The position numbers and the translations under genes are program-made. Positions 28,573 through 36,993 of a DNA stretch of 37,769 nt are shown in pieces; position 1 is the stretch's first letter; each line of letters opens with the position of its first letter. Source of the stretch: a virus; IMG/VR virus record IMGVR_UViG_3300032294_003113, positions 1 to 37,769 of that record. One strand, 5' to 3'. The notes below the pieces were generated by a model. That model was not told the origin of the DNA. It saw nothing but the letters and a program-made list of their open reading frames with translations, and made no database searches.

Positions 28573-29217
28573 TTATTCCTGTTTGAAAATGGCAATAAAT
28601 TCTTCAGGTGAATTAGATTCCTTTGCGAGATCTATCAGTTTTTCTATTAATTCTGGTGGAGGTGGAATAGTATTCACCATAGAAGTCCAGACAAAGATAA
28701 AATCATCATAAGATCCCTGTGTCAAATTATTGAATATATCTGGAATTGAAGTTATCATTAAAGGATAATATGGAAAAATTTGTAGAATATAATCATTTAA
28801 TTCTTTTAAAACTGATGCTCCTGTCCGAAATTTTTTCCAATCTGGTTCTTGAGGTTTTTCATCAGTAGAATTATCTCCATTATCAATTGGATCATAATAT
28901 TGAATATCTGAAATTATACTCGTACTATCCTGATAAATCAATTCATTGATACTAGTATCAACAATTATGAATTTACGAAAATATCTATACCAGGCAATCT
29001 TTTGAGTTCGTGGATCATAATCATAAGTTTCTACAATATTATCTTCAGTATCAATAACATGAGGAGTTGGAATTTGAATTGGACCAATCCAATCAATACT
29101 ACTAAGTTGTTGATCTGTCAATGATTGCAAATTATTCATTATCATTCCACCGGGAAATCTCCATCTATCCGGAAGTTCTTGGGGATACTCTCCTCCAGGT
29201 GGACTATATAAATTCAT
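28573..29217 (-). CDS. Unknown protein, 214 aa, possible tail-fibre accessory
   Basis: Starts MNLYSPPGGEYPQELPDRWR, then SLTDQQLSSIDWIGPIQIP, a Pro/Trp-rich beginning reminiscent of tail-fibre assembly chaperones; the middle is acidic (YYDPIDNGDNSTDEKPQEPD), the end helical. It overlaps the start of the downstream gene's neighbour by 4 nt (ATGA type) with the DUF6165 gene. It sits in the fibre/adhesin region, which makes a chaperone role plausible, but no diagnostic motif is visible. Confidence 0.6.
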   Translation of the reverse strand: MNLYSPPGGEYPQELPDRWRFPGGMIMNNLQSLTDQQLSSIDWIGPIQIPTPHVIDTEDNIVETYDYDPRTQKIAWYRYFRKFIIVDTSINELIYQDSTSIISDIQYYDPIDNGDNSTDEKPQEPDWKKFRTGASVLKELNDYILQIFPYYPLMITSIPDIFNNLTQGSYDDFIFVWTSMVNTIPPPPELIEKLIDLAKESNSPEEFIAIFKQE

Positions 29218-29597
29218 ATTTTCTCTGACTTATGTGAGTATTTATGAAGTTTAATTTCACGATATTCAGAATTTGTTTTTTGGTTAATTCTTTTTTTAAT
29301 CTCTGCTCTTTCATCATTTGTCAGATAAACTTGTCGAGCTAACTGAATAAAATTTTCAGAAAAATCTTTTTGATTTTCGTATTCTCTAATCTCATCTTCA
29401 ATTTTCCAAAGTTTTTGATTTACGAGTAAAAGTTCTGATAATTCATTTTCATGATAAACAGAATTTGATTTTGCTATGCTGATTAATTCAGAAAGTTCTT
29501 TATGTATAAAAGAATTATTTGAATATTGAGACTTGATTTGTAAGATTGTAATCTTATCTAAAAGTTCGCCTACTGATATTGGAATCGTAATGTTCAT
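29214..29597 (-). CDS. DUF6165-family protein, 127 aa
   Basis: The start MNITIPISVGELLDKITILQ and the end with QLARQVYLTNDERAEIKKRI are the two hallmarks of DUF6165, small helical proteins often near glycosyltransferase and surface-polysaccharide genes in bacteria (from memory). I place the start at ATG 29597; an earlier TTG at 29624 would add nine residues not matching the family and would run into the preceding variable gene. Lies just downstream of the DGR target at 29628. Biochemical role unknown. Confidence 0.75.
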   Translation of the reverse strand: MNITIPISVGELLDKITILQIKSQYSNNSFIHKELSELISIAKSNSVYHENELSELLLVNQKLWKIEDEIREYENQKDFSENFIQLARQVYLTNDERAEIKKRINQKTNSEYREIKLHKYSHKSEKI

Positions 29598-29627
29598 AAT
29601 TAAAAAACAAGTAACAAGAAACAAGTA

Positions 29628-30116
29628 TCAATAAGTAACACACCGGAAGGCACGCACGCAGCAGGTGCTCGTCTTATTGTTGCAGTACGTAGTACCATTG
29701 TTAAAGCACAGAAAGCAACCGAGAGTAGCACTAAGCTCCGTAGAAGACCAATAAATGGCGGCGGAGAACGTATCCCACTGAGATCTACAAATATAACCAG
29801 GATTATTTAATTGTGATATTGAAGGAACAAACCAATCAGAAGGATTAAATCCACAATTAGCCAATTGAGATTGCAATCCCGGCCATTCAAAGATGCAACA
29901 TTTATTTCCAACTAATGTTGAATTATATTGCCCTCCAGCCCATTGTGATCCTACTTGAGTACAAGCAGGGGCGACAATCCAAGCAGTACCACCTGCCTTA
30001 CATATAACTCTACTTCCATCAGGTAGTGTGGTTCCTGTGGGACATATAATTGCAAAATAACTCGCACCTTCAGTAGTTCTTAACCACCATTCAGAAGGTC
30101 CTACGGTAACTCCCAT
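29628..30116 (-). CDS. DGR variable protein 1 (C-type-lectin-like / DUF1566-type adhesin)
   Basis: 162 aa, cysteine-rich (13 Cys). After a short distinct N-terminus (MGVTVGPSEWWLRTTEGASY) it shares with the two genes at 35957 and 36523 the sequence CPTGTTLPDGSR, GGTAWIVAPACTQVGSQWAG and DWFVPSISQLNNPGYICR. The end has YWSSTE and VRAFRCVTY, the C-type-lectin fold used by DGR targets. The last 130 coding bases are variable repeat 1; variable residues include I, L, L, F, C, T, Y, C, S and C. No signal peptide, so it fits a virion protein. It is 5.5 kb from the template, in the same orientation, with its own late-promoter motif 27 nt upstream. Confidence 0.9.
   Translation of the reverse strand: MGVTVGPSEWWLRTTEGASYFAIICPTGTTLPDGSRVICKAGGTAWIVAPACTQVGSQWAGGQYNSTLVGNKCCIFEWPGLQSQLANCGFNPSDWFVPSISQLNNPGYICRSQWDTFSAAIYWSSTELSATLGCFLCFNNGTTYCNNKTSTCCVRAFRCVTY
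29643..29772 (-). repeat. DGR variable repeat 1 (VR1)
   Basis: 130 bp, colinear with the template at 35299-35428 without gaps. I count 17 differences, all at template A (coding sense): for example AAT to CTT, AAC to TGC, ACC to GCC. The 3' end GCGTGCGTGCCTTCCGG is identical and acts as the presumed initiation of mutagenic homology. Differences run the whole length, up to the second codon of the repeat's 5' part. Confidence 0.95.
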
Positions 30117-30135
30117 TTATTTTATTTCATACATT

Positions 30136-31119
30136 TTATACATATTTATTCAATTTAAAAGTCTTTTTTTCAGTCTCTTTAAAATTCATTGTTTTTTCTT
30201 GTTTGTTTTCAATATTTTCTATAATTTTTTGACACCAATACTCAATTTCTTCTTCGGTAAACTTTATTCTTTCTTCATTTAGTCTTGTATAAAGAGAACT
30301 GTCATAAGAACATATTCTCATTGGAGAATGATAATAAGGCACATCTCTTTCAATAATATGAAAGTCTTCTGGATACGATACATTTTCTTTACATGTCCCA
30401 GAAATTAAAACAGATGCTTTTTGTCCAACTGCCTTCGCAAAATGCTGTCCACAACTATCACATCCAATAAAATAATCCGCTTCTTGAATGATTCCCATCC
30501 ATTCTCTCATATTTGGATCAGGTTGAGGTTTATAAGAAATTCCATCATGATGTTCATGAGGTCCCATATAAATGATATTATAATTTTTAGAAAGTTCCTT
30601 TACAATTTTTTCATAGAAGTTCTGAGGAAAAGATCTAAAAGAAGGATCAAAAATTCCTACTGGACAGCGATTTGCTGTGCTGCCATATGGTTGAATTACG
30701 ATCGTTTTTTTCTTCTTTTGTAGTTGTTCAACTTCATGAACGATCTGTTGACCCTTAATTATTTCAAATTGAGATAATTTAACATATTTTTTTGATAAAT
30801 TCTCATAATCTTTTGCAGCATTAATTTCTTGATGAAACGCCTGAATTAAATTAATTTCTCCTCGATAATATTCCGGAAGTCGATATGGTTCTGGATTTAT
30901 AATTTTCTCTGCTTTCCAGAAATACTGATCAAAAATTCCTTTTGTTTCCGGATTAAAGGTTCGATTTTGAAGTTCTGGAAATCCCCAAGTTACAAAATCC
31001 CATCCATGAATCATGAAATAGAATTCTTCATTTTTATGTTTTTCTGCAAAATATAAAAGAGCAGGTACAGATGTAAATGCTCTTCCAATTCCTCCATCAA
31101 TTGTAATAATTGTACTCAT
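30136..31119 (-). CDS. GT9-like (GT-B fold) glycosyltransferase
   Basis: 327 aa. The N-terminus (MSTIITIDGGIGRAFTSVPA) and the C-terminal nucleotide-sugar half (TIVIQPYGSTANRCPVGIFD, GCDSCGQHFAKAVGQKASV, LISGT) resemble heptosyltransferase-type GT9 proteins, in which D/G..H..A..G.P.....G forms the donor site. Substrate unknown. Its start overlaps the sulfotransferase stop by 4 nt, so the two are coupled. Likely part of a glycan cassette acting on virion fibres or host surface sugars. The gene's end carries the late promoter motif of the next gene. Confidence 0.65.
   Translation of the reverse strand: MSTIITIDGGIGRAFTSVPALLYFAEKHKNEEFYFMIHGWDFVTWGFPELQNRTFNPETKGIFDQYFWKAEKIINPEPYRLPEYYRGEINLIQAFHQEINAAKDYENLSKKYVKLSQFEIIKGQQIVHEVEQLQKKKKTIVIQPYGSTANRCPVGIFDPSFRSFPQNFYEKIVKELSKNYNIIYMGPHEHHDGISYKPQPDPNMREWMGIIQEADYFIGCDSCGQHFAKAVGQKASVLISGTCKENVSYPEDFHIIERDVPYYHSPMRICSYDSSLYTRLNEERIKFTEEEIEYWCQKIIENIENKQEKTMNFKETEKKTFKLNKYV
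30143..30150 (-). promoter_or_regulatory. Late-promoter motif AATAAATA for DGR target 1
   Basis: Minus-strand AATAAATA, an exact NATAAATA match, 27 nt upstream of the ATG at 30116 and inside the 3' end of the glycosyltransferase gene. Same position relative to the start as at the other two targets. Confidence 0.55.
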
Positions 31120-31934
31120 TTATAAGAAAGCAATGTTTTAACAGAATTTTTAGAATTTTTTTTCCAGAATTCCATACTCGCATTTGAATATTTTTCAATG
31201 ATTTCTGGTGGTAAAATCATTCTAGGTGGATTATATTCCACTTTTCTTTTTACAGTATGTAGATCTTTAAGATTACAAACAATATCGAAAGATTCATTTG
31301 AATATTCAAGATTCTCAAAATCATGTTTATAATAAGGAAGATTCAAAAAATTATAAATTTGTCTTAGAGTATTCTCTGGATTTTTACAAAGATTTTCATA
31401 TTCCACAAGATAAATCATTTCTGGATATGAATAATATCCTTCTTGAAGATTTAACCAATTTGTTGTAATGATACCCTCTTTATTATCCATCAAAGAATCA
31501 CATCTTGAAAAGACATGATGCCTCAAATCTTCTTTAACCAATGTATTTGCGTATAATGAATTCTTTTTAAAAATAATCTCAAATGAATTTAAAATTTCAA
31601 CAATATCTCTTACACAACAAAGAATTTTTGTATCAGGAAAAAGAGTTTTCAATAATGAAATTCTTTTTGTCCATGCACGAGAAGTATCAACAACAATCGG
31701 TTTTTCAATTTCAGAATAAAATCCTTCAAAAATATGTTGAAGAATTGAAATTCTTCTTTTTTCATTTACAATAAAATTACTCTCACATCCAGTTAATAAA
31801 TCAATTGCAGTTGTGCAAAGTCCTTCTACTGGAGATGAGATGTCTGCATAAATGTCTGAATTTTGTCTTAGAATTGCAGACAATAATGTAGACCCAGATC
31901 GAGGTAGACCCGAAATAAAATAATAATTATGCAT
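31116..31934 (-). CDS. Sulfotransferase
   Basis: 272 aa. The PAPS 5'-phosphosulfate loop is SGLPRSGSTLL (8-18), and the 3'-phosphate site is CCVRDIVEILNSF with R109 and S117. The remaining helices and YLVEYENLCKNPENTLRQIY are typical of P-loop sulfotransferases. It would move sulfate from PAPS to a hydroxyl or amine; substrate unknown, perhaps a glycan. The start overlaps the carbamoyltransferase end by 8 nt and its end overlaps the GT9-like gene, so three enzymes are co-translated. Confidence 0.85.
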   Translation of the reverse strand: MHNYYFISGLPRSGSTLLSAILRQNSDIYADISSPVEGLCTTAIDLLTGCESNFIVNEKRRISILQHIFEGFYSEIEKPIVVDTSRAWTKRISLLKTLFPDTKILCCVRDIVEILNSFEIIFKKNSLYANTLVKEDLRHHVFSRCDSLMDNKEGIITTNWLNLQEGYYSYPEMIYLVEYENLCKNPENTLRQIYNFLNLPYYKHDFENLEYSNESFDIVCNLKDLHTVKRKVEYNPPRMILPPEIIEKYSNASMEFWKKNSKNSVKTLLSYK

Positions 31935-33624
31935 AACCAGTTTTTGTTTTACGATCTTTTTTTACAATAAAATTACCAATTACTAGAAAATCCAAATCTA
32001 AATGATTAAATGCATTCACTGCATCTTTTGGCGATTCTATAATTGGTTCACCATTATCATTGAAAGATGTATTTAGAATCACCGGAACTTTAGTAAGTTT
32101 ATAATAACTCTGAAGCAATTGAGTCATTTCTGAATGATATTCTTTGTTTATTGTTTGAATTCTACAAGTGTGATCTACATGAGTAATTGCTGCAATTTCA
32201 TTTCGTTTTTTCTCTTTTACTGTAAAAGAGTATAGCATATAAGGAGAGAAAAAATCTTCTTCAAAATATTCTGACAAATATTCTTCTAATATAATTCCAG
32301 CAAAAGGTCTCCAATACTCACGATGCTTAATTCTAGAATTTAAAATATTCTTATTTTCTTTAGGGGTAGGATTCATTAAAATTGATCTTGATCCAAGTGA
32401 TCTTGCACCAAATTCAGATCGATTTTGAAACCATCCTATAATTTTATTTTGAGAAAGTTGAATTGCAGTGAAATCACATAATTCATCAAAATTATCAAAT
32501 TTTTGATATTCCAATTCTTTTAATTCAGATTCAATCTCATCATTCGAATATTCTTTACCCAGAAGAGAAATATTATAAGGAAGTTCAATTCGTTGTTTAT
32601 TTTGAAATACACCATAACAGGCTGCTCCAAAATGAAGACCAACATCATTTGTGTATGGTGGAATATGAATATTATATTCCTTATTTCTTAGACAAGAATT
32701 ACCTAAAACATTCAGGAATGATCCACCTGCAAGACAAATATTCTCTTCGAGAAAATTCAAGTTTTTGAGTTCTGCAAAATAATCAATTAGAGCATTTTCA
32801 AAATTTTTCTGAAGAATATATGCTTGTTCATCTGCGGTTTTCAATTCAAAATGTTTCTGATATTCGAAAACCACATATGGAAATTCGGAATAAGAAAGAT
32901 CTTTTGATAAGGAGTATTCCTTTAAGAAATTTAAATTCTCGTTCTCACCATAAGCAGAAAGTCCCATGATTTTTCCGTCCCATGTTTCACGATATTTCTC
33001 ATTCATAGGATCAATATTCTTTCTTATTTTTTTACAATAAATTTTATGAGAAGTATCATGATAATAGGAACCAAAATTATTAGTTCCAGAAATACCATTA
33101 AAAAATCTTATATAATTCTTAGACTTATCGAAATAACCAATTAAATTTGTTTCCGCTTGAAGAGAGTTTCTATAATCTGCATCATAAATTAATGAACCTG
33201 CTCCATCTAAAGTAATAAAGCATCCATTTTCAAAATCTGAAGTAAATATAGAAGATGATGCATGTGCTAAATGATGAGAAATAATTTTTAATTTTGAATT
33301 AGGAAAAAGTTTTTGAATCTTTTTCGAAATAATTTTATCATTTAATTGACGATAAAAAACCTCTAAGCACATAGAAGGAATGAGAATTAAATCTATATTT
33401 TCATGAGTTAAATTACCCTCTTTCAAACAATATTCGATCGAAGAAATTGGAAAATTTCCATCATGTTTAATTCTCGTTAATCTCTCTTCAGAAATACTGC
33501 AAATATGTTTTGATTTTATAAAAAGAGTTGCACCTGAATCATGAACCCAAGTTAAATTTTGATGATTATCAAATGATGAATTTGCATTCCAATCAAATGC
33601 ACCATATATTCCAAGAATATTCAT
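31927..33624 (-). CDS. Carbamoyltransferase (NodU/CmcH/TobZ family)
   Basis: 565 aa, the family's length. The N-terminal Kae1-like domain has MNILGIYGAFDW, ISEERLTRIKHDG, SHHLAHASSS (metal-binding histidines at 117-121) and FITLDGAG. The C-terminal YrdC-like domain has GWFQNRSEFGARSLGSRSIL, HREYWRPFAG and PVILNTSFNDNGEPI. It transfers a carbamoyl group from carbamoyl phosphate via carbamoyl-AMP to a hydroxyl, as on Nod factors or antibiotics. In this phage the acceptor is unknown, possibly a sugar made or modified by neighbours. Precedes and overlaps the sulfotransferase. Confidence 0.88.
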   Translation of the reverse strand: MNILGIYGAFDWNANSSFDNHQNLTWVHDSGATLFIKSKHICSISEERLTRIKHDGNFPISSIEYCLKEGNLTHENIDLILIPSMCLEVFYRQLNDKIISKKIQKLFPNSKLKIISHHLAHASSSIFTSDFENGCFITLDGAGSLIYDADYRNSLQAETNLIGYFDKSKNYIRFFNGISGTNNFGSYYHDTSHKIYCKKIRKNIDPMNEKYRETWDGKIMGLSAYGENENLNFLKEYSLSKDLSYSEFPYVVFEYQKHFELKTADEQAYILQKNFENALIDYFAELKNLNFLEENICLAGGSFLNVLGNSCLRNKEYNIHIPPYTNDVGLHFGAACYGVFQNKQRIELPYNISLLGKEYSNDEIESELKELEYQKFDNFDELCDFTAIQLSQNKIIGWFQNRSEFGARSLGSRSILMNPTPKENKNILNSRIKHREYWRPFAGIILEEYLSEYFEEDFFSPYMLYSFTVKEKKRNEIAAITHVDHTCRIQTINKEYHSEMTQLLQSYYKLTKVPVILNTSFNDNGEPIIESPKDAVNAFNHLDLDFLVIGNFIVKKDRKTKTGYA

Positions 33625-33632
33625 ATGAAAAA

Positions 33633-34253
33633 TTATTTTTGTGTTTCTGGAATGGGGAAATTATCTTGTGGTAGAACAACCATATTAAATGATATCGAAA
33701 TTCTTTCATCATCATGAGAATTTGTTTCTACAGAATGTGGAATATAAGAAGGAAAGAGAATAATAGATCCTTCTTCTGGTTCTATTCGCATCATTTCACC
33801 AGTGAATGAGTTCTTTTCTTTTGCCAACTGACATCCGGACCAGAGACGATTCATTCCAGGATTTGAAAGAACAAATTTTCCACTTTTTTCTGGGCATTTG
33901 AGATAAAAAACTCCAGAAAGAACTTCACCATGAACATGTTCAGAATTCATACATTCACGAGAATCATTGAAATTCACCCATGCTTGAGTAAGAAAAATAT
34001 TATTGTCTACGAAATTTAAATCAATGACTGCTTGCATTGCCATTTCACAGACATATTGAAAAAGAGGACGAAGTTCTTGTTCAGATTGAAGTGTAAATGG
34101 AGATTGATATCCTGCAATATTTGATTTTTGAATTCCTTCAGGATTTTTTTCTCTGAAGTTTCTTACACAAGTTAAAAAAGATTCTTTATGTTGTTCGAAA
34201 TCTGGAAATACAGACATCCAGACGGGAATTGAAAAAATTGGGGAAAGTTCCAT
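33633..34253 (-). CDS. 2-oxoglutarate/Fe(II) oxygenase-like protein
   Basis: 206 aa. A double-stranded beta-helix with SEHVHGEVLSGVFYLK (H108-x-E110 or H106 as iron ligands), SGKFVLSNPG, then IILFPSYIPHSVETN (distal H173) and ERISISFN with R184, which would bind 2-oxoglutarate. It matches the phage TIGR02466-type putative hydroxylases that are common in cyanomyoviruses. Target unknown. It begins 2 nt after the reverse transcriptase stop, so it is probably transcribed with the DGR core, and 8 nt before the carbamoyltransferase gene. Confidence 0.8.
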   Translation of the reverse strand: MELSPIFSIPVWMSVFPDFEQHKESFLTCVRNFREKNPEGIQKSNIAGYQSPFTLQSEQELRPLFQYVCEMAMQAVIDLNFVDNNIFLTQAWVNFNDSRECMNSEHVHGEVLSGVFYLKCPEKSGKFVLSNPGMNRLWSGCQLAKEKNSFTGEMMRIEPEEGSIILFPSYIPHSVETNSHDDERISISFNMVVLPQDNFPIPETQK

Positions 34254-34255
34254 AA

Positions 34256-35287
34256 TTAAATTAATTTTGAATAGTTAAACATTTTTAAGTCGTTTTTAAT
34301 CGCAATGGATTTTCTAAGATTATAGCATGAACCATGCCTCATTAGTCCATAATAGGAATTAATAGATTCTCTTGTTTGAGATTTCTTTGCTCTTTCTTTT
34401 ACTGAATTTCGAATGTAAAGGGAGAAAGGTTTTACAATGTATCCAACTAAATTTACACCGCATTCTAACTTATTATGTTTTGTTTTGCAAGGATTCAATT
34501 TTAAATTCAAAGTATTCAAAAAATAATTAATTTCTAAAATTGTTTGTTGAATAGAAATTGTTTTTGGTAAAATTAAAACCATATCATCCAAATAACGAAA
34601 ATAATAAGGAGTAATATTTTCTAGAATCCAATGATCAAAATCATTTAAATACAAATTTGCAAATATCTGAGATGTTAAGTTGCCAATTGGTAAACCTGTA
34701 TTTTTATTAAATAAAGATTTTCTTTCTGGTATTAATTTTTTTAAATTTGGATTACCTTTATAAAAATATTTCTCCGTAGGATTTTGATGAATAAAAAAAC
34801 TTAATAATTCTAATGTTTTAGAGTTGTCAATAATTTCATAAACTTTATCTTGTAAAATTTGTTTATGAATTGAAACATAAAAATTTGCAATATCTACTTG
34901 AAGATAAAGATAATCTTCTTTTTGATTCCAGAATTTTCTTAAACATTTTTGAAATTCTTTTGCACACCTTAGAGTACCTCGATTCTTTAAACAAGCATAA
35001 GTCGTTGAAATATAATCGTCTTCTATGTGAGAAATTCTATTATAAAGCAAATGATGAACAATTCGATCTCTAAAATTTGCTGCCCATACTTCTCTTGGTT
35101 TTGGTTTTGTTATAATAAAGTAAATATGCGAATCTGGATAATAGATATCATTTTTTAATTCTTCATAAAGATTCCATAAATTTTCTTCCAAATGAAATTC
35201 AAATTGTATTTGTTGAAATGTATTTCTCTTATTTCTTCTACAATCATAATATGCAGAAACAACTTCAGAAAATGTGATGTCATTCAC
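34256..35287 (-). CDS. DGR reverse transcriptase
   Basis: 343 aa. It copies the template RNA into mutagenised cDNA. Motifs: KPKPREVWAANFRDRIVHHL (61-80), QVDIANFYVSI with catalytic D132, GLPIGNLTSQ (198-207; the G-x-x-x-SQ version specific to DGR enzymes, in place of QG in other reverse transcriptases), and YFRYLDD with YLDD at 232-235. A C-terminal thumb follows, with no maturase or endonuclease domain. The frame starts at GTG (35285-35287), fixed by an in-frame TGA 9 nt upstream; a GGAG about 9 nt before it lies at the template's 3' end. Downstream of the template, in the order avd-TR-RT. Confidence 0.95.
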   Translation of the reverse strand: MNDITFSEVVSAYYDCRRNKRNTFQQIQFEFHLEENLWNLYEELKNDIYYPDSHIYFIITKPKPREVWAANFRDRIVHHLLYNRISHIEDDYISTTYACLKNRGTLRCAKEFQKCLRKFWNQKEDYLYLQVDIANFYVSIHKQILQDKVYEIIDNSKTLELLSFFIHQNPTEKYFYKGNPNLKKLIPERKSLFNKNTGLPIGNLTSQIFANLYLNDFDHWILENITPYYFRYLDDMVLILPKTISIQQTILEINYFLNTLNLKLNPCKTKHNKLECGVNLVGYIVKPFSLYIRNSVKERAKKSQTRESINSYYGLMRHGSCYNLRKSIAIKNDLKMFNYSKLI

Positions 35288-35572
35288 AACTATTCACTCC
35301 GGAAGGCACGCACGCAGTTGGTGTTCGTCTTATTGTTGTTGTTCGTATTACCATTGTTAAAGTTCAGATTGCAACCGTTAGTAGCACTATTCTCCGTAGA
35401 AGACCAATAATTGGTGGCGGAGAACGTAATTAAATTTACTATCACAAGTCAATTTTTAGAATTGAGTGTTCGTTAGAACTTCTACCTGTGTTTTCAGGTA
35501 AGTAAATCGCGTGAATTGAGATCACTGTCATCTCGCTAGAAAATGACATTCTGCTCATTGTGAATGACTCTA
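35288..35572 (-). ncRNA. DGR template RNA region (between Avd and RT)
   Basis: The stretch from the Avd stop to the RT start contains the template repeat and 144 nt of leader without an ORF. The leader has perfect short hairpins: ACCTG-loop-CAGGT at 35484-35499 and GAGAT-loop-ATCTC at 35518-35534, and an alternative TGTCAT/ATGACA pairing (35526-35548) that excludes the second. Structured RNA upstream of the template is needed with Avd and RT for cDNA priming in the Bordetella phage DGR (family knowledge). RNA boundaries are inferred. Confidence 0.65.
35299..35428 (-). repeat. DGR template repeat (TR)
   Basis: 130 bp matching all three variable repeats. In coding sense it has 14 AAY codons (AAT/AAC), with the densest run AAC AAC AAC AAT AAG ACG AAC ACC AAC; these are the adenines mutated in the targets. 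It would read NYWSSTENSATNGCNLNFNN if translated. The 3' end GCGTGCGTGCCTTCCGG matches the targets exactly, then diverges (AGTG here, TGTG in targets). No gene uses it as protein. Confidence 0.96.
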
Positions 35573-35908
35573 TTATTTAGAGTACTTAAACCATCCTGTT
35601 GCTTGTTTTACACAAGGTCTACTGACTTCAACATAAAGTCCATATTGCCTTTCAGTAATAATATTCATATCTTTTCCAATACGAATAAGATAGGAAAGAA
35701 AATCTAAAGAAGAAACTAGATTATCTAAATATTCTGTTTTATTTTTATGTCTGGCTGATTTATAAATTAAATCTACACAATCTAACGCTGTATTTTGAAT
35801 TCTTATTCCTATTGTAAATTTATATTCTCTAGGAAAATTTTTAACAATAATAAAAACTCTTTTGACCATTTCACTAATATCACGATAAATTTGCAATTCT
35901 TCTACCAT
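35573..35908 (-). CDS. avd: Avd-like DGR accessory protein (four-helix bundle)
   Basis: 111 aa, all helical, basic. FPREYKFTIGIRIQNTALDC, then LVSSLDFLSYLIRIGKDMN and RQYGLYVEVSRPCVKQATGW match the bAvd/S23-like four-helix-bundle family, whose barrel-shaped pentamer binds RT and template RNA in the Bordetella phage system. Lies between the second target and the template, the classic avd-TR-RT order. ATG at 35908; the upstream gap has a CAAG-type short repeat and no clear Shine-Dalgarno sequence. Confidence 0.9.
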   Translation of the reverse strand: MVEELQIYRDISEMVKRVFIIVKNFPREYKFTIGIRIQNTALDCVDLIYKSARHKNKTEYLDNLVSSLDFLSYLIRIGKDMNIITERQYGLYVEVSRPCVKQATGWFKYSK

Positions 35909-35936: not shown

Positions 35937-35963
35937 CAAGTAACAAGAAACAAGTATCAATAG
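35937..35963 (-). repeat. CAAG-rich short repeat downstream of DGR target 2
   Basis: + strand CAAGTAACAAGAAACAAG, then TATCAATAG, overlapping the stop of target 2 (35957). The same string follows target 1 at 29608-29633, and a shortened form (CAAGTATCAATAGG) follows target 3. In target 2 an extra unit, ACAAGTAATAAGGG, precedes it (from 35922). Homology therefore extends beyond the variable repeat on its 3' side. Confidence 0.6.
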
Positions 35964-36427
35964 GTAACACACCGGAAGGCACGCACGCAGATGGCGCCCG
36001 CCTTATTGTCGTTGCCCGTAGTACCACTGCCAAAGAACAGATTGCAACCGTTAGTAGCACTATTCTCCGTAGAAGACCAATAATTGGTGGCGGAGAACGT
36101 ATCCCACTGAGTTCTACAAATATAACCAGGATTATTTAATTGTGATATTGAAGGAACAAACCAATCAGAAAAATTAAATCCACAATTAATCAATTGAGCT
36201 TGCAATCCCGGCCATTCGAAGATGCAACATTTATTTCCAACTAATGTTGAATTATATTGCCCTCCAGCCCATGCTGATGATACTTGAGTACAAGCAGGGG
36301 CGACAATCCAGGCAGTACCACATGCTTTACATATAATTCTACTTCCATCAGGTAGTGTGGTTCCTGTGGGGCATACTGAAATTAAACTCGATTGCCACCA
36401 TGAAGTGGGTCCAATAATAAATCCCAT
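35957..36427 (-). CDS. DGR variable protein 2 (C-type-lectin-like / DUF1566-type adhesin)
   Basis: 156 aa, 11 Cys. Starts MGFIIGPTSWWQSSLISVCP, nearly the same as the 36523 gene in the constant part (TAWIVAPACTQVSSAWAGGQ, NYWSSTENSAT, CVRAFRCVTY). The last 130 bases of its C-terminal part are variable repeat 2: the first half is still identical to the template, and the second half reads NLFFGSGTTGNDNKAGAIC. No signal peptide. It has its own late-promoter motif 23 nt upstream and lies between the Avd gene and the third target. Probably a receptor-binding tip protein of the virion fibre encoded upstream. Confidence 0.9.
   Translation of the reverse strand: MGFIIGPTSWWQSSLISVCPTGTTLPDGSRIICKACGTAWIVAPACTQVSSAWAGGQYNSTLVGNKCCIFEWPGLQAQLINCGFNFSDWFVPSISQLNNPGYICRTQWDTFSATNYWSSTENSATNGCNLFFGSGTTGNDNKAGAICVRAFRCVTY
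35972..36101 (-). repeat. DGR variable repeat 2 (VR2)
   Basis: 130 bp against the template: 14 differences, all at template A. All lie in the half nearest the 3' end (IMH side); the four AAY codons at the 5' end are unmutated. This one-sided pattern suggests a partial cDNA copy or a crossover inside the repeat. Confidence 0.95.
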
Positions 36428-36522: not shown

Positions 36523-36993
36523 TCAATAGGTAACACACCGGAAGGCACGCACGCAGTAGGTGCGCGCCTTATAGCTGCCGAACGTATTACCATTGATAAA
36601 GCACAGAAAGCAACCGCCAGTAGCACTAGTCTCCGTAGAAGACCAATAAGTGGTGGCGGAGAACGTATCCCACTGAGTTCTACAAATATAACCAGGATTA
36701 TTTAATTGTGATATTGAAGGAACAAACCAATCAGAAGGATTAAATCCACAATTAGCCAATTGAGATTGCAATCCCGACCATTCGAAGATGCAACATTTAT
36801 TTCCAACTAATGTTGAATTATATTGCCCTCCAGCCCATTGTGATCCTACTTGAGTACAAGAAGGGGCGACAATCCAAGCAGTACCACCTGCCTTACATAT
36901 AATCCTACTTCCATCAGGTAGTGTGGTTCCTGTGGGACATGCCGTAATTAAACTCAATTGCCACCATGAAGTAGGTCCAATAATCAATCCCAT
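36523..36993 (-). CDS. DGR variable protein 3 (C-type-lectin-like / DUF1566-type adhesin)
   Basis: 156 aa, 11 Cys. Starts MGLIIGPTSWWQLSLITACP; constant part almost identical to target 1 at DNA level and to target 2 in protein. The C-terminus has TYWSSTETSATGGCFLCFIN and the invariant VRAFRCVTY end. Its variable repeat is the most changed (19 sites). It lies 67 nt downstream of the tail-fibre gene stop, in the same orientation, with a late-promoter motif in the gap; a fibre-tip adhesin is the natural reading. The three copies let one template diversify several binding surfaces. Confidence 0.9.
   Translation of the reverse strand: MGLIIGPTSWWQLSLITACPTGTTLPDGSRIICKAGGTAWIVAPSCTQVGSQWAGGQYNSTLVGNKCCIFEWSGLQSQLANCGFNPSDWFVPSISQLNNPGYICRTQWDTFSATTYWSSTETSATGGCFLCFINGNTFGSYKARTYCVRAFRCVTY
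36538..36667 (-). repeat. DGR variable repeat 3 (VR3)
   Basis: 130 bp against the template: 19 differences, all at template A, spread over the entire repeat (for example AAC to GGC, TTC, CGC and TAC; AAT to TTT). C, G and T positions are untouched. Confidence 0.95.

Follow-up and report, generated by a model that had tools for sequence, protein, structure and literature searches.

The reverse transcriptase operon of a phage diversity-generating retroelement continues into a putative glycan-modification cassette

The stretch of DNA analysed here, referred to as the window, is a 37,769-base IMG/VR fragment (IMGVR_UViG_3300032294_003113) that carries a diversity-generating retroelement (DGR), and the operon of its reverse transcriptase (RT) was found to continue into a cassette of genes for a 2-oxoglutarate (2OG)-Fe(II) oxygenase, a carbamoyltransferase, a sulfotransferase and a GT9-like glycosyltransferase (GT). 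Judged from the enzyme families and from related loci in other phages, a role of this cassette in glycan assembly and decoration is well supported. In addition, we propose, with evenly balanced confidence, that the glycan operon serves the same tail-fibre module, with a fibre or adhesin as the component that would be modified.

Results

On the minus strand, the order is a fibre gene, DGR target 3 (36523..36993, a 156-aa adhesin with its variable repeat (VR) at the C-terminus), target 2 (35957..36427, 156 aa), the accessory variability determinant Avd (35573..35908; Pfam bAvd 4.2e-17, PHROG Avd 4.8e-22), the template repeat (TR; 35299..35434), which was assigned by comparison with the VRs and is a member of a four-copy repeat family, and the RT (34256..35287, GTG start; Pfam RVT_1 7.3e-15). 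There follow the 2OG-Fe(II) oxygenase (PF13759) as the first cassette gene (33633..34253; Pfam 2OG-FeII_Oxy_5 4.6e-21), a NodU/TobZ-family O-carbamoyltransferase (31927..33624; Pfam Carbam_trans_C 3.9e-64, Carbam_trans_N 6.4e-25), a sulfotransferase of the 3'-phosphoadenosine 5'-phosphosulfate (PAPS) type (31116..31934; Pfam Sulfotransfer_3 2.3e-20), the glycosyltransferase with a predicted GT9/heptosyltransferase fold (30136..31119), target 1 (29628..30116, 162 aa) and a DUF6165 protein (29214..29624; PF19662 1.7e-8), whose true start is probably an ATG near 29597. The three targets were identified by VR/TR comparison, and the Pfam matches of the oxygenase, carbamoyltransferase, sulfotransferase, RT, DUF6165 and Avd are all above cut-off. 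The oxygenase gene starts after a gap of 2 nt behind the RT stop, the sulfotransferase gene overlaps that of the carbamoyltransferase by 8 nt, and the GT9-like gene overlaps that of the sulfotransferase by 4 nt. These coordinates confirm the observation of an earlier note on this DNA that four overlapping or nearly touching enzyme genes lie between RT and target 1, with DUF6165 beyond; the location given there for a glycan cassette thus stands, but rather than being inserted inside the DGR, as the note had put it, the cassette is better described as a continuation of the RT operon.

The DGR of the window is genuine. Like BPP-1-type DGRs, it has an RT, Avd and a TR, and its adhesin genes contain three VRs mutated at adenines, but it differs from them in that its RT operon extends into the glycan operon. 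Mismatches between VR and TR were found at 22/43 adenines in target 3, 17/43 in target 2 and 20/43 in target 1, with none at the 33 C or 27 G positions of any of the three, and the T mismatches across the comparison (3/37) are confined to the left edge. A similar adenine bias is seen in relatives (L205, A 22/46 and 2 other changes; L208, A 18/44 and 1 other change). The named closest relatives of the RT include RTs of DGR phages, BPP-1 among them, at a best identity of 37-38%, and the match of the DGR target to the C-type-lectin-like family Lcl_C (E 0.0051) is weaker than the curated cut-off. To our knowledge, protein sequence is the only thing that DGRs are known to vary.

The placement of the cassette is not due to chance, because the arrangement recurs in other phages, as seen in searches of IMG/VR from four starting points, namely GT9/2OG, target, sulfotransferase and RT. 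Starting from the RT, a cassette gene was immediately next in 9/9 contigs whose RT is at least 60% identical (10/10 with the window); some of the nine are near-duplicates, so that they stand for about six separate lineages in addition to that of the window. The RT overlaps the next gene by 4 nt in seven of nine loci measured (L236, L237, L238, L239, L240, L241 and L292), and the two are separated by 7 nt in L235, compared with 2 nt in the window. Gene order and RT coupling are kept down to about 61% RT identity, and the identities of the 2OG proteins rise and fall with those of the RTs (r = 0.90; 15 pairs, not independent of one another). Among more distant RTs, a cassette gene was nearby in one of 68, which is a lower bound since several of these loci are short. 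Starting from GT9/2OG, the cassette was found to adjoin the same target family in L002, L003, L086 and L089, while the target search yielded target homologues on 25 distinct contigs, and 17 of these have 2OG and/or GT9 in the fetched stretch; the remainder comprise three with DUF6165 alone (two of them truncated) and five, mostly large phages, with targets and no cassette. The sulfotransferase search added further 2OG-sulfotransferase-GT9 loci. Homologues scattered at unrelated loci, which the earlier note had named as evidence that would speak against its proposal, are not what we see in close relatives, which hold the set beside the same targets.

The single distant case, L243:5088-9738 (IMGVR_UViG_3300016643_000033), has a fibre gene, target, Avd, TR, RT, a tail-assembly-like open reading frame (ORF) and a sulfotransferase. 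The RT is 41% identical to that of the window and is overlapped by the tail-assembly-like ORF by 4 nt, and the sulfotransferase, two genes after the RT, is 52% identical to its counterpart. This phage is of a different kind, unrelated to that of the window, and its DGR-sulfotransferase link may be independent or transferred. In addition, large phage contigs (L201, L207 and L209-L212; 139-250 kb) carry target homologues without the cassette, some at several distant places, and these are possibly other DGR systems with dispersed targets.

The gene content of the cassette is variable and its place constant, as expected if the locus serves to assemble and trim a glycan. L205 and L208 have an additional GT4-family enzyme (PF00534, tested in L205) and two further genes, labelled GT2L-type in this analysis, that have no Pfam match; in L208, the set further includes a sulfotransferase of a second family (PF03567) and one more 2OG oxygenase. 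There are two carbamoyltransferases in L237 and none in L002 and L089, DUF6165 is part of the gene set in most relatives, and L241 is a minimal locus of RT, GT9 and target. The cassette also outlives the RT, as several relatives keep targets and cassette with remnants of Avd and RT or with none. In L089, residues 1-60 of Avd are fused in frame to the last 59 residues of the RT (L089:9623-9997), exactly between target and 2OG gene; this fusion is the remnant of a deletion of the TR and most of the RT, and shows DGR decay in which the targets were kept. In L002, the site of Avd, TR and RT in the window is occupied by a shortened Avd with a TnpB gene behind it (L002:6331-7668). The contigs L002, L003, L086, L089 and L008, all five of them fragments, yielded no RT, so that an RT acting in trans is possible.

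The enzyme families and the fixed position in relatives support the proposal of the earlier note that a set for carbamoyl and sulfate modification of a glycan lies among the adhesin genes. In the 2OG protein, H106, H108, H173 and R184 are invariant across three phages and are candidate metal and 2OG ligands. The carbamoyltransferase has both NodU/TobZ domains (PF02543 and PF16861), its profile matches TobZ at 2.5e-64, and the HxxxH and Asp residues are kept (SHHLxHA, D140 and D327). The sulfotransferase has a P-loop-like 5'-phosphosulfate-binding motif (5'-PSB; GLPRSGSTLLS, with the PRSGST loop) and a 3'-phosphate-binding motif (3'-PB; R109...S117), which are invariant in four phages. Its nearest solved relatives are protein-tyrosine sulfotransferases (TPSTs), at a weak 7e-7, and the CurM sulfotransferase matches comparably; a classification as TPST was ruled out because the catalytic glutamate of the GEET motif is not conserved, the aligned segment of the window reading ADISS. 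The maximum 19-residue hydropathy of the four cassette enzymes is 1.13-1.57, with no membrane-helix-like peak, and nothing in the cassette was recognised as a flippase, polymerase, ligase or membrane-anchored transferase.

The GT9-like protein was assigned through structure prediction. Its own sequence gave no clear family in Pfam, where PF01075 was not listed and a weak pyruvyl-transferase match was the only one; PF01075 was not listed for the P-SSM2 protein either, whereas the bacterial relatives L113, L121, L144 and L182 do match, and a sequence search of the PDB gave no match. The model had a pLDDT of 39.6 without an alignment and of 89 (AlphaFold2) with a 62-sequence alignment, and the top PDB matches of the latter in Foldseek were WaaC, RfaF, a Veillonella GT9 and TibC (E 2e-8 to 1e-6), with WaaC at 2.4e-8 and all of the top 30 being of the GT9 type, although TM-scores were moderate (0.43-0.64). 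The GT9-like call of the earlier note is thus not borne out by Pfam on the sequence itself but is borne out by the predicted structure, for which the top PDB list holds GT9 heptosyltransferases only. We regard the modelled GT9-like fold as solid, while the reaction is one that we infer. The Asp of the N-terminal GD motif, which is catalytic in WaaC, is an Arg (R13, codon 13, window 31081-31083) in 54/54 phage members and is retained in bacterial relatives. In addition, the D-[ST]-x-x-x-H motif of the C-lobe is present, with D221 and H226 invariant in 62 sequences, and C220 is the sole strongly conserved cysteine of the phage family. With R13 in place of the GD-motif Asp, the catalytic mechanism of the phage proteins may differ from that of bacterial GT9 enzymes. 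TibC shows that GT9-fold enzymes are able to glycosylate adhesin proteins (PMC4358343), and the window enzyme resembles TibC and AAH (BAHT) in its GT9-type fold (TM 0.54-0.60 to TibC) and in its location with adhesin genes. However, it is only about 10% identical and lacks their conserved four-cysteine iron finger, and membership among the TibC-type protein heptosyltransferases was not adopted for the latter reason.

The context of DUF6165 in bacteria suggests that this protein is a probable partner of a GT9-type enzyme. In 48 of the 80 bacterial DUF6165 loci found by profile, a gene within 300 bp matches an extended GT9 profile, which was built with some bacterial sequences from the same 80 loci (12 of them are reached by the phage-only profile), and several of these genes are Pfam GT9. 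In Prochlorococcus, DUF6165 adjoins a tetratricopeptide repeat (TPR) protein whose C-terminus is GT9-like, and one Neomarinimicrobiota locus (L128:8421-11504) has TPR-GT9-like, DUF6165 and flagellin genes in a row. FlmG, a TPR and GT-B protein, O-glycosylates flagellin (PMC7591256), and the position of DUF6165 after TPR-GT9-like proteins, in Prochlorococcus and at the flagellin locus, recalls this protein-glycosylating GT-B logic, although the phage enzyme has no TPRs and is likened to FlmG by domain type alone. The context of DUF6165 thus points weakly to protein glycosylation; DUF6165 itself drew no match in the library of papers that was searched.

Motifs resembling T4-type late promoters (NATAAATA, CTAAATA or CTTAAATA), assigned by consensus matching alone, are present 19-37 nt upstream of 14/14 targets in the window, L002, L003, L086 and L089. 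Those of the window are AATAAATA at -29 for target 3, CTTAAATA at -33 for target 2 and AATAAATA at -34 for target 1. Such motifs are mostly absent upstream of the carbamoyltransferase, sulfotransferase and GT9 genes, and the 2OG gene of L002, L003 and L086 has one at -49.

Related genes occur in known cyanophages. The GT9-carbamoyltransferase pair is found in 70/78 IMG/VR loci of the wider GT9 family, and in the lipopolysaccharide (LPS) clusters of P-SSM2, S-SSM7 and S-CAM1 a GT9-like gene likewise directly precedes the carbamoyltransferase gene among fibre genes; these clusters, however, are larger than that of the window, carry sugar-nucleotide pathway genes that the window lacks, and have no DGR that we could see. 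Synechococcus phage S-SRM01 resembles the window in that its tail-fibre genes are neighboured by genes for DUF6165 (56% identity), a sulfotransferase, glycosyltransferases and a TPR-GT9-like protein, but it has no homologue of the DGR target, and the TPR-fused enzyme replaces the stand-alone GT9. Fibre genes flank related GT9-carbamoyltransferase or sulfotransferase genes in P-SSM2, S-CAM1 and S-SRM01. In P-SSM2, a cupin domain was matched by the gene annotated as a 'putative nucleotidyltransferase' (L005:16355-16711), and Pfam gave nothing for the 'phosphoheptose isomerase', so that 'heptose pathway' is only a label and the published labels of the cluster may be wrong.

A matching unit in cyanobacterial surface-polysaccharide loci, for which the earlier note had suggested looking, was not found in the genomes searched. 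The phage GT9 subfamily was detected in 0/200 genomes of one Synechococcus-containing order with a model that detects phage members and misses distant bacterial GT9 proteins. Sulfotransferase homologues in 10 cyanobacterial genomes are distant, and the four such loci inspected have no other cassette gene within about 9 kb.

As for the surroundings, the baseplate genes of the window resemble those of T4-like cyanophages, and the closest homologues of the tail-tube-cap protein are in S-SRM01, S-SKS1 and S-CAM7 (38-45% identity). The protein encoded at 28573-29217 resembles PHROG 28130, comes after the targets in most relatives and has an internal repeat in some. The left end of the window, apparently a 5-kb gene desert, is a single long open frame that extends off the contig. 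L197 (IMGVR_UViG_3300033571_029008) is a near-identical twin of the window that begins within target 1, and its contig might serve to lengthen or corroborate the window. No Rfam families were found in the window.

Discussion

Given the fibre neighbours, the late-promoter-like motifs at the targets, the apparently soluble enzymes, the pairing of DUF6165 with GT9 in bacteria and the coupling to the RT, the evidence leans towards modification of the fibre or adhesin. Here we propose that late promoters of the gp55 type at the targets would give read-through transcripts that include Avd, TR and RT together with the cassette, and that the GT9-fold enzyme would act in the cytosol ahead of virion assembly, adding a sugar or short glycan to a fibre or adhesin protein with the assistance of DUF6165 and, among relatives, also of GT4/GT2 enzymes. 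The carbamoyltransferase would then add carbamoyl groups and the sulfotransferase sulfate, and the 2OG oxygenase might hydroxylate the protein acceptor or the sugar. While amino acid variation at the tip would come from the DGR, the cassette would set the chemical coat on the fibre, which might affect adsorption, stability or escape from receptor-like decoys.

Several points weigh against this proposal. GT9 enzymes act more often on LPS and classically build the LPS core, and in cyanophage relatives this GT9 is found together with sugar-nucleotide genes in what have long been labelled LPS clusters. With R13 in 54/54 phage GT9-like proteins, even transferase activity is uncertain. The hydropathy result is also compatible with acceptors at the inner membrane face, the flagellin-linked DUF6165 locus is a single case, and L205 and L208 have no late-promoter-like motif before the target. 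The cassette might instead remodel the host surface, its enzymes building or modifying host LPS or exopolysaccharide late in infection and thereby blocking rival phages, or the adsorption of own progeny to debris; its placement by the adhesins would in that case link 'what we bind' to 'what we hide'. The clustering of GT9-carbamoyltransferase pairs with a PfkB kinase, a cytidylyltransferase-like protein, a cupin and an epimerase in P-SSM2, S-CAM1 and S-SSM7 speaks for such a role, as does the variable gene content, which is typical of surface-glycan loci. However, the cassette shows no recognisable export, polymerisation or membrane-anchored machinery and no membrane-helix-like hydropathy peak, the cyanobacterial genomes searched hold no cognate unit, and the strict linkage to fibre or target genes and to the RT stop would not be needed, so that we regard host-surface remodelling as possible, if on balance unlikely. 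Phage gtrABC genes, which bring about O-antigen glucosylation, are likewise phage genes that alter surface sugars, but they include a membrane flippase and a membrane-anchored transferase of the sort not recognised here.

It is also conceivable that the genes are hitch-hiking morons, that is, glycan and metabolic genes that have gathered in the fibre-to-nrdC/td slot, a hypervariable site of T4-like cyanophages, and are unrelated to adhesin function. The slot by the glutaredoxin and/or thymidylate synthase genes is variable in P-SSM2, S-SKS1 and AG-345-L05 as well, and a 2010 survey, in which cyanophage LPS genes were described with function unknown, raised the notion of 'stuffer DNA' (PMC3037559). 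Yet mere passengers would hardly keep their order and RT coupling over the range of RT identities seen here, nor would the 2OG sequence be expected to follow that of the RT or the cassette to be retained where the RT is lost, and we consider this explanation improbable. Direct protein modification without a glycan, in which the sulfotransferase would act on adhesin tyrosines and the oxygenase on the adhesin while the GT and carbamoyltransferase act elsewhere, might seem favoured by the TPSTs among the nearest solved relatives and by L243, where no glycosyltransferase was recognised in the ORFs between RT and sulfotransferase; but with the TPST glutamates not conserved, CurM matching comparably and the remaining operon genes being sugar enzymes, it appears very improbable indeed. 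As an extension of the fibre proposal, we speculate about a two-layer diversification, in which many of the tip residues rewritten by the DGR would become Ser, Thr, Tyr or Asn and the coupled enzymes would then glycosylate, carbamoylate or sulfate the adhesin that carries them, mutation creating or destroying sites. Although we think this decidedly doubtful, the phage would, if it is true, explore chemistry beyond the 20 amino acids.

Genes of the glycosyl-, sulfo- or carbamoyl- kind are absent from a paper on Bacteroides phage DGRs (PMC6199706) and from the main text of a large DGR survey (PMC8144416). A DGR with a coupled glycan operon would be a new variant of DGR, with prior notice elsewhere being possible.

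If modification of the fibre or adhesin is confirmed, a single programme would both vary the sequence of receptor-binding proteins and decorate them chemically. Together with the probable partner role that the present analysis names for the DUF6165 family, the locus offers a compact handle on the question, raised in 2010, of whether the 'LPS genes' of cyanophages serve a function or are filler (PMC3037559).

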